Translations under genes and position numbers: made by a program | Origin: Comamonadaceae bacterium | GTDB taxonomy: Bacteria > Pseudomonadota > Gammaproteobacteria > Burkholderiales > Burkholderiaceae_C | Assembly: GCA_947450765.1 (NCBI GenBank) | Contig: CANFXC010000001.1 | Coordinates: forward strand, 186,001 to 250,000 | DNA length: 64,000 nucleotides | Direction of reading: 5' to 3' | Shown: positions 12,401 to 16,300 of the stretch, piece by piece | How the letters are laid out: the number at the start of each line of letters is the position of its first letter | Position numbering within the stretch: the first letter of the stretch is position 1 | The notes under the pieces: model-generated | Told to the model about the DNA's origin: nothing | The model's database searches: none | The model's input: the letters and a program-made list of their open reading frames with translations, nothing else

Positions 12401-13880
<1,480 letters not shown>

Positions 13881-13884
<4 letters not shown>

Positions 13885-15053
13885 GCGCGCCCCTCAACTT
13901 ATCGTCATTGCGAGCGCAGCGCGGCAATCCAGGGGTTCATGGATTGCCGCGCTGCGCTCGCAATGACGAAGGTGTGTTGCCTAGCCAGCTTAGGCTCAAG
14001 CTCCAACGAGCCGACTTTGCGCTGGATGTCGACCTTGAGTTGCCGGGCCAGGGCATCACGGTGTTGTTTGGTGTGTCTGGCTCGGGCAAGACCAGCTTGC
14101 TGCGCTGCGTGGCCGGTCTGGAACGCACGCCGGGTGCGCTGGTCTCCATGGCGGGCGAGACCTGGCAAGACGACGCTGCCGGCGTTTACCTGCCGACCTG
14201 GCAACGCCCGCTGGGCTATGTGTTTCAGGAAGCCAGCTTGTTTGAGCACCTGAATGTGCGGGCCAATTTGCAGTTTGGCTTGAAGCGCTCCAAGGGTGCG
14301 GCCGACAGCTCGGCTTTGAGCGCCGCCATCGACTTGCTGGGCATTGGCGCGCTGCTGGAGCGCAAAACCAGCCAGTTGTCAGGCGGTGAGCGTCAACGCG
14401 TGGCGATTGCGCGCGCACTGGCAACGCAGCCCCGCTTGCTGCTGCTGGACGAACCGCTGGCGGCCCTCGATCACGCCCGCCGCCAAGACATCCTGCCCTG
14501 GCTGGAACGGCTGCGCGACGAGCTGAAAATTCCCATGCTTTACGTCACGCATTCATCGGACGAAGTGGCGCGTCTGGCGGACACCTTGGTGGTGCTGGAT
14601 GAAGGCAAGGTCAAGGCCTGCGGCCTAGTTGCTGATGTCTTGGCCGGACTCGATATTCCGGTGGTGCTGGGTGACGACGCCGGTGCGCTGCTGTCTGCCA
14701 GCATTGAAAAGCGCGACGAGCGATGGCATCTGGCACAGCTGAAGTTCAACGGCGGCAGTCTCTGGGTTCGTGACACCGGTCTGCCGCTGGGGCGGCAGGT
14801 GCGCGTGCGGGTGTTGGCACGCGATGTCAGTATCGCCCTGGACAAACCCAGTCAGACCAGCATCCAGAACCTGCTGCCCTGTGTGGTGTTGGCGATGGGT
14901 CCCGACACGCATGCCTCGCAATCATTGATCCAGCTCCAGTGCGGTCAGTCTGTTCTGCTGGCACGCGTCACGGCACGTGCGGTGCATGAGTTGCAACTGA
15001 AGCCCAGTATGCAGGTCTGGGCGCAGGTGAAATCGGTGGCTTTGGTCGAGTAG
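13881..15053 (+). CDS. modC: Molybdate ABC transporter ATP-binding protein ModC, with palindromic insert at N-terminus
   Basis: This 390-residue ATPase has Walker [10 protein letters not shown], signature [15 protein letters not shown], Walker [13 protein letters not shown] and an H-loop in YVTHSSDE. The C-terminal third is a TOBE/Mop domain that binds molybdate and tunes uptake. The ATG at 13881 overlaps the modB stop in the same ATGA manner as modA/modB, so it is the expected start. Residues about 8-30 are encoded by a 66-bp perfect palindrome (13903-13968) absent from the normal ModC layout, where the first strand begins near residue 3-5. The frame stays open through it, so translation may read through the insert. 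Alternatively it restarts at the in-frame GTG 13974 or TTG 13977. Confidence 0.93.
13903..13968. repeat. 66-bp perfect palindromic element (REP/MITE-like) inside modC
   Basis: Two 29-nt arms (13903-13931 and 13940-13968) are exact reverse complements separated by an 8-nt loop. The arm begins CGTCATTGCGAGCGCAGCG, a sequence type known as a dispersed repeat in several bacterial genomes. The element is 66 bp, a multiple of three. It has no stop in the modC frame and so inserts 22 codons. In RNA it would form a very stable hairpin 22 nt after the modC start codon, which could reduce modC translation. No second copy was noticed in this window. Confidence 0.9.
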
Positions 15054-15064
15054 GGTTTGAACGA

Positions 15065-16300
15065 CTAAGCCAAGACAGGCCGCACCGGCTTCCTCGCCAG
15101 CATGAACGAGACCGAGCCCAGCGCCGACAAGATCGCCAGCACGGTGAAGCCGAGCTGGTAATTGCCAGTCAGGTCGGCCAACATACCGGCGACCATCGGC
15201 CCGGCGATCTGGCCCACGGCGATGATCGCGGCTGAAATACCCATGATCGCGCCGATCGCCTGACGACCAAAATAATCGGCCCGGATCGCCTGCATGAAAG
15301 GACCACGCAGCCCCCAAGCCAGGCCATGAAACATGGCGAAGGCGATCAAGCCCTGCATCTGGCTTGAATACGTCAAAAACATCAAACCAAGTGCGTGCGA
15401 CAACATGCACAGCGCCGCCACTTTACGTTTCTCAAATCGGTCGCCGATGGCCGCTCCAAGCAGCACACCCAACAGCTGCCCAAAAGTCATCAGCATGATG
15501 ACCCAGCCCGCTGTTGCAAAGGAGTAACCAAGGCCCTCTCGCATGTGGGTGATCGCATGGACGTTGACGGCGGTGACCACCAGCAAGGCCAGCCCGTGGC
15601 CGATCGCCAGCAACCAGAAGGCTTGCGTGTTGAGGGCTTCACGGAGTGAAAATTCTTGTTGCCCGGAGGCTTTCAAAACCGCCGATTCATGCGTCTCGTC
15701 TTCCGGCCGAATGCCATCGACAAATTCACCGTGGTCTGCGGGGCGTCGGCGGATCATGCGCGCCAAGGGCAAACCCACCACAAGGGCCATGACGCCTGAA
15801 GCCGCCGCGGTGGCACGCCAGCCCCACTGCTGCATGGACCAAGCCATGGCCGGCACCACCAAGCCGCCCAGCGCCAGACCTAAGCTCATGATGGAGAGCG
15901 CACGGGCGCGGTACTTTTCAAACCAGTGGACGATGGCGATTGAAAGTGGGAAATAGCCGCCCAAACTGGCACCAACAGCCATCAAAATCGCGCTGACATA
16001 AAAGGTGCCCACGCTGTCCACCTGACTCAACAGCAAGAGCCCGGCACTGAAAATCACGATGCCCCAACGGATGATGGATTGCGGGCCCCAGCGGTCCATC
16101 AACCAACCGAGCAATGGCCCGATGATGGCGGACTCAGCCGACTGCAGGGCCGCAGCGCCCGACAATGTGGTCTTGCTCCAACCCATTTCTTCCGACAAGA
16201 CAGCGATGTACAGACCGAAGCTCTGCAACAGCAAAGCGCCTATCAAGAACTGAATGCCGCAAGCCGCACCGACCATGCGCCAGCCGTAGAAAATGGGCAT
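15065..16300 (-). CDS. Major facilitator superfamily transporter
   Basis: This 411-residue protein has twelve predicted transmembrane helices in two halves joined by a cytoplasmic loop rich in charged residues (about 180-215). The start FYGWRMVGAACGIQFL and the motif LLGWLMDRWGPQ between helices 2 and 3 resemble the oxalate/formate antiporter and monocarboxylate-transporter-like branch of the MFS. It probably moves an organic anion. It is convergent with modC (11-nt gap) and has no obvious pathway partner. The mrp gene upstream on the same strand is only 39 nt away, so they may share a transcript. Confidence 0.88.
   Translation of the reverse strand: MPIFYGWRMVGAACGIQFLIGALLLQSFGLYIAVLSEEMGWSKTTLSGAAALQSAESAIIGPLLGWLMDRWGPQSIIRWGIVIFSAGLLLLSQVDSVGTFYVSAILMAVGASLGGYFPLSIAIVHWFEKYRARALSIMSLGLALGGLVVPAMAWSMQQWGWRATAAASGVMALVVGLPLARMIRRRPADHGEFVDGIRPEDETHESAVLKASGQQEFSLREALNTQAFWLLAIGHGLALLVVTAVNVHAITHMREGLGYSFATAGWVIMLMTFGQLLGVLLGAAIGDRFEKRKVAALCMLSHALGLMFLTYSSQMQGLIAFAMFHGLAWGLRGPFMQAIRADYFGRQAIGAIMGISAAIIAVGQIAGPMVAGMLADLTGNYQLGFTVLAILSALGSVSFMLARKPVRPVLA

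Follow-up and report, generated by a model that had tools for sequence, protein, structure and literature searches.

What kind of element is a perfect palindrome that lies in frame at the very start of modC, is ModC translated through it, and what has kept it there? We addressed these questions in the window, the whole 64,000-nt stretch of DNA analyzed here, and in relatives of its genome. Our main reading, to which we assign a probability of roughly 0.75, is that CGTC-tagged REP repeats, arranged as a dimer, inserted at the 5′ end of modC in an ancestor of a species group, are translated as a harmless tail and are kept as a nucleic-acid element, because their silent sites are near-constant while the silent sites of modC itself diverge by roughly one third or more. 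The kind of element is known; what is new, and open to testing, is how strongly silent sites are conserved inside translated REPs. This bears on whether individual REP copies are useful to the cell or debris of mobile DNA, which is still debated.

A perfect palindrome at the 5′ end of modC

The first-pass annotation described a perfect palindrome with 29-nt arms and an 8-nt loop, without a stop in the modC frame. The palindrome is real, and its arms extend to 30 nt each (13902–13931 and 13940–13969; 100% complementary, 8 nt between them), that is, the 29-nt REP units proper plus one outer T/A pair. It starts 21 nt past the A of the modC ATG, and the frame is open throughout. Among inverted repeats of the whole window with arms no more than 200 nt apart, the runner-up reached only 23 nt at 74%. 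As RNA, the 68-nt palindrome folds with −64.7 kcal/mol (z = −12.85), which none of 200 shuffles equalled. Folded on its own, a single unit leaves the CGTC tag and the short CCA tail unpaired and forms 5 + 3 pairs with an internal loop and a 3-nt loop. Rfam gave no match at gathering scores for positions 13000–15200. The coordinates of all features are listed in Table 1.

Table 1. Features at the modC site, in window coordinates
Feature	Position	Strand	Basis or remark
Whole palindrome, 30-nt perfect arms and 8-nt loop	13902..13969	.	Inverted-repeat search and fold
REP unit 1: CGTC tag, stem-loop, CCA tail	13903..13931	+	0 mismatches to unit pattern
Spacer GGGGTTCA, 8 nt	13932..13939	.	
REP unit 2, inverted, tag outward	13940..13968	-	0 mismatches to unit pattern
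Stretch absent from L010, L011 and L013	approx. 13895..13981	+	87 nt; ends ambiguous by a few bases
modC, molybdate transporter ATP-binding subunit, 390 aa from ATG 13881	13881..15053	+	ABC_tran, TOBE; structures 2onk and 3d31 among matches
modB, permease subunit; stop overlaps modC ATG	13183..13884	+	BPD_transp_1
Candidate downstream starts GTG and TTG, in frame, right behind the palindrome	13974..13979	+	Read from the sequence

The palindrome belongs to a dispersed family of REP repeats

Searching for the arm across the genome, a check that the first-pass annotation had proposed, revealed the palindrome to be one copy of a dispersed repeat. A 111-base query around it gave 94 matches at many sites of its own genome (3.04 Mb in 151 contigs, 87% complete; both strands counted), and the unit pattern with at most three mismatches likewise found 94 units, 54 forward and 40 reverse, compared with none for a reversed control pattern. 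From this genome we retrieved 39 blocks with 78 units, a subset of all copies. The 5-bp outer stem was fully complementary in 71 of the 78 units and came in several types (ACTGC/GCAGT in 32, ATTGC/GCAAT in 21, ATGGC/GCCAT in 13, ATCGC/GCGAT in 3 and two others in 1 each), which is a sign that pairing matters. The 39 blocks held 28 tags-outward dimers, besides +++- arrangements and singles. The spacers of these dimers measured 19 nt (18 dimers), 20 nt (6), 7 nt (3) or 8 nt (1), the last being the modC copy. Allowing three mismatches, units were present in 22 of 61 genus genomes, this one included, at 1 to 374 per bearing genome; with at most two mismatches they were found in 10 of 200 family genomes, again counting this one. 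At eight other REP loci, relatives mostly carried other REP arrangements, scars or altered flanks, and the insertion boundaries revealed no target rule.

The assignment of the palindrome to the known superfamily of CGTC-tagged REPs, as a dimer, is well supported, because tag, tail, dimer layout and dispersal all fit. In the available excerpts of Di Nocera et al. (2013, PMC3733652), these repeats have an unpaired CGTC tag, a short unpaired tail that is mostly CCA, stems of 8–9 bp that start almost invariably with complementary A and T, loops of 4–5 nt and mainly head-head dimers with the tags outside. Our repeats share with that description the CGTC tag, the CCA tail, a short stem-loop, tags-outside dimers and dispersed copies, some of them within genes, as well as the lack of any dedicated transposase in view. 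They differ from the REPs described there in their 5 + 3 bp with an internal loop, their 3-nt loop and a tag-to-tail length of 22 nt. As for the A/T rule at the stem start, the modC units agree with it, and the commonest genomic stem is AC/GT (32 of 78 units). The same excerpts place R. conorii RPE-6 in CGTC-1 and RPE-4 in CGTC-4, and through this assignment and description the earlier comparison of the palindrome with Rickettsia RPEs proved apt. Like RPE-4 and RPE-6, the repeats studied here are short palindromes that can lie in frame inside genes; unlike them, they occur in another host group and most of their copies lie outside confirmed genes.

A further resemblance is to the REPIN-RAYT systems of Pseudomonas and others, which, as far as the excerpts of PMC3116915 and PMC8049555 describe them, also comprise dispersed inverted REP pairs with conserved spacer lengths. 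Here, in contrast to those systems, the tag is CGTC rather than GTAG, and no Y1 gene was flanked by these repeats in the loci examined. The Y1 transposase family was present in 84 of 87 genus genomes, mostly as one gene per genome independent of REP number, and in 22 of 22 REP-bearing versus 38 of 39 REP-free genomes. No REP unit was found by script near any of the 30 Y1 loci fetched, and inspection by eye of 3.3 kb around the Y1 gene of this genome (L009, G000:C34:21050-21376) revealed no such REP. Given its equal presence in REP-free genomes, we rejected the Y1 transposase as a dedicated partner; together with the REP-free Y1 loci, this means that nothing points to an own RAYT. Thus, within Y1, the only transposase family covered, no dedicated transposase was found. 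A GGATCTGACCCCATTTATT-like repeat does lie beside the L009 Y1 gene. In one open-access collection, we found no related literature on the unit sequence or on REP-coded peptides; among the matches listed there for intragenic REPs with synonymous or purifying selection, only PMC3733652 was relevant.

A probable single insertion at modC, variously kept, shortened and bypassed

A search of 87 genus genomes and named genome contigs yielded ten close species with a modC site, including this one. The 66-bp dimer lies in frame in the window, in G083 (L015) and in G075 (L016); G064 (L012) has it too, with a downstream restart of modC. G026 (L091, which lies at a contig end) carries a 77-bp dimer of another arm and spacer type, and its modC is also re-started. 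In-frame deletions of 36 nt occurred in G076 (L014) and G109 (L052), leaving short hairpins of opposite loop orientation, and each deletion is explained by a 5-nt direct repeat. The site is empty in G078 (L010), G103 (L011) and G008 (L013). An in-frame palindromic repeat adding 22 codons, as the first-pass annotation had it, is therefore found in five of the seven filled species and not in G064 and G026, where modC is re-started; nor are the 22 residues common to all ModC orthologues, as three of the ten species lack them. Likewise, the 66-bp element is real, but the gain relative to the three empty relatives is 87 nt, or 29 codons (junction lengths of 183 nt here versus 96 nt), because some 20 nt of flank accompany the palindrome.

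Compared with the window, the palindrome of G064 is identical, that of G075 has one arm change and that of G083 two changes, both among the 8 spacer bases, so that three species share the spacer GGGGTTCA. The common position and spacer of these four 66-bp alleles argue for a single insertion event and inheritance by descent. Trees built from modB, from modC and from a patchy concatenation (7.2 kb for this genome, 4.7–7.0 kb for the other nine) were star-like, and the three empty species did not group; the order of gains and losses at modC is therefore beyond the resolution of these trees. Mini-hairpins such as CGTCACTGCGAGCGCAGTGACG at two intergenic loci, L253 and L233 (G103 and G109), resemble the internal contraction seen at modC, which suggests a recurrent mode of decay.

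In-frame REPs in miaA and a pseudouridine synthase

Two further genes carry REPs in frame. In miaA (loci L122, L218–L223 and L278–L285), every one of the seven group species in which the locus was found has REP-coded inserts in a mid-gene loop, and these inserts come in seven lengths, each of which preserves the frame; G008, G083 and G076 gave no match. The MiaA loop pattern could be read in 22 of 30 loci, namely six of the group, 15 short-loop outsiders without REP and the outsider G065; the group member G109 was among the eight loci not read by the pattern and was read separately. When five genomes were searched for the miaA REP peptide, the matches listed separated genes poorly from gaps. 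In this genome, L122 (G000:C3:66200-69300) encodes as many as three consecutive, nearly identical copies of the REP peptide VTASEARQS, and in G065 (L284) a glycine-rich, low-complexity insert of another kind occupies the same loop, marking it as a permissive site.

The other gene encodes an RluA-type pseudouridine synthase (L123, G000:C47:8600-11700; L224–L231) with REPs near its C terminus in four of nine species, in frame in all four. The remaining five lack a REP, and G103 and G109 among them may carry scars. In the G075 copy, the spacer is inverted compared with the other copies.

The silent sites of in-frame REPs are conserved

If these stretches were drifting, their silent sites should change as in the flanks. 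They do not. The miaA REP core (63 nt, seven species) had a pS of 0.034 (12 differences in 348 site comparisons) and a pN of 0.054, compared with a pS of 0.366 and pN of 0.032 in the 110 codons upstream, and 0.393 and 0.033 in the 60 codons downstream. Variable columns fell on the three codon positions as 1, 5 and 2 in the REP and as 17, 4 and 66 upstream. None of 150 upstream windows had a pS as low as the REP (minimum 0.219), whereas the REP pN lay within their range (maximum 0.066). As the locus had been picked in this genome, we also calculated pS without it, which gave 0.020.

The modC REP behaved similarly: in the three in-frame species with an intact palindrome, there were 0 differences in 53 synonymous-site comparisons and 6 in 145 non-synonymous ones. 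No modC window out of 335 was as low in pS (minimum 0.160, median 0.366), and pairwise dS of modC was 0.37–0.70 among eight of the ten species (G064 and G083 left out). For the pseudouridine synthase, the rates come from three of the four filled species, the rearranged G075 copy being left out and data for G083 lacking; pS was 0.033 in the REP versus 0.399 in the flank, and pN 0.035 versus 0.097. Hence, each of the three genes shows conserved silent sites in its REP. Constraint at the protein level is clearly not the reason in miaA and modC; this is less clear for the synthase, where such constraint is possible because the REP pN, too, lies below that of the flank. At L248, L252, L271, L273 and L274 dimers were not callable by script, and that comparison entered no rate. 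Covariation between the miaA arms, with one double-change pair, did not exceed that of shuffles.

Drift is thus disfavored. So are recent separate insertions, because they would bring varied spacers, and modC and miaA each have a spacer of their own that recurs across species (the 7-nt miaA spacer is within one change in all seven species). A bolder reading, at slightly less than even odds, is that each translated REP is maintained where it lies, over a period in which adjacent silent sites diverge by more than a third, by purifying selection on the DNA or RNA, and that the protein merely tolerates the residues. If true, a REP copy that stays in place would itself have a function at its locus, or some site-specific upkeep, and would not be a drifting remnant of mobile DNA.

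The same conservation could result from gene conversion between REP arms instead of selection at each locus, which we regard as a less probable account, though one with evidence on its side. Units are alike across the genome, and the modC dimer of G026 is of another type, so that replacement does happen (one type change). Against it, spacers are shared by locus across species at both modC and miaA, and the miaA arm types are constant in 7 of 7 species apart from single point changes. Had the arms been drawn freely at the frequencies of this genome, such constancy would have a chance of 0.002 in the left arms and 0.0001 in the right ones. Free rewriting from the genomic pool is disfavored because it would mix arm types; conversion restricted to arms of one type could possibly hold them constant.

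Translation of ModC through the REP

An open frame says little about translation, because the REP frame is naturally poor in stops. The old ATG, the upstream CAGGT and the overlap with the modB stop all persist in the window and in the relatives read. In ModC from outside the group, only a few to ∼20 residues precede the first strand (relatives readable by script, with script-chosen starts). Homology of this ModC to solved structures begins at residue 38 at least in the 60 of 107 matches listed, and an AlphaFold2 model (32 sequences) has pLDDT <50 for residues 1–22 and 27–30 and its first strand at residue 35. From the low pLDDT and the late start of homology, REP residues 8–29, if translated, would form a disordered N-terminal tail.

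A less probable alternative is that the palindrome is non-coding, ModC starting at TTG 13977 or GTG 13974 and the hairpin forming a modB-modC leader that possibly tunes ModC. The old start of G064 and G026 now leads into a 37- or 36-codon ORF, and the TGA of this ORF overlaps the new ATG from which modC is re-started; this holds although the REP lengths differ. Furthermore, all five in-frame species have the same TTG CCT AGC right behind the palindrome, preceded by GAAGG or GAGG-like bases. In this genome, translation could begin at TTG 13977, which follows a weak GAAGG; the excerpts of PMC3733652 also caution that many N-terminal REPs may be extragenic. The persistence of the old start codon, CAGGT and modB-stop overlap argues for the upstream start. 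Both the intact and the 36-nt-shortened alleles are in frame as well, which is a weak argument because the repeat spacing fixes the 36 nt.

We therefore keep to the old ATG in outlining what may have happened at modC. A REP dimer (two 29-nt units, inverted, with the 8-nt spacer) would have entered the 5′ end of the gene in the group ancestor and would be transcribed together with modBC. Translation, coupled to the modB stop, would most likely still start at the old ATG and run through the REP in most filled species, so that ModC gains a disordered tail ahead of the ATPase fold, probably tolerated and harmless. The sequence of the hairpin would be kept by some agent that acts on it at the DNA or RNA level, and the insert may be lost by deletion between the 5-nt repeats, or modC may escape it via a downstream restart.

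The first-pass annotation also suggested that a hairpin near the start could lower ModC synthesis relative to ModB; that it is kept for this role seems improbable. The predicted fold is very stable and its first pair lies 21–22 nt past the A of the start codon. On the other hand, three of ten species have no hairpin, two have a short one only and two have bypassed it, and the mid-gene REPs of miaA, from which no effect on initiation is expected, show equal conservation. The natural alleles of one REP in one operon, intact, shortened, absent and bypassed, lend themselves to expression work.

REPs inside and outside genes

Even less probable is that the REP is an element specialized for entering proteins, as Rickettsia RPEs were first described. 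In-frame copies do exist in modC, miaA and the pseudouridine synthase, but these are the only 3 of 39 blocks confirmed within genes by orthologues, and three more are possible: L144 (an ORF), L152 (an epimerase C terminus) and L135 (a UbiA-type N terminus). Finally, despite the fragmented assembly (151 contigs), an assembly artefact or chance has a negligible probability, because the palindrome occurs at the same place in the assemblies of three other species, and many diverged copies lie elsewhere in the genome.

In-gene REPs thus carry their own ruler in the adjoining silent sites, which makes the question of their usefulness testable locus by locus. They also call for care in annotation, as peptides such as SLRAQRGNP or VTASEARQS may be translated repeats and not domains. 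At L144 (G000:C2:1-2400), a 525-aa open frame with no Pfam match contains several in-frame REP-derived stretches.
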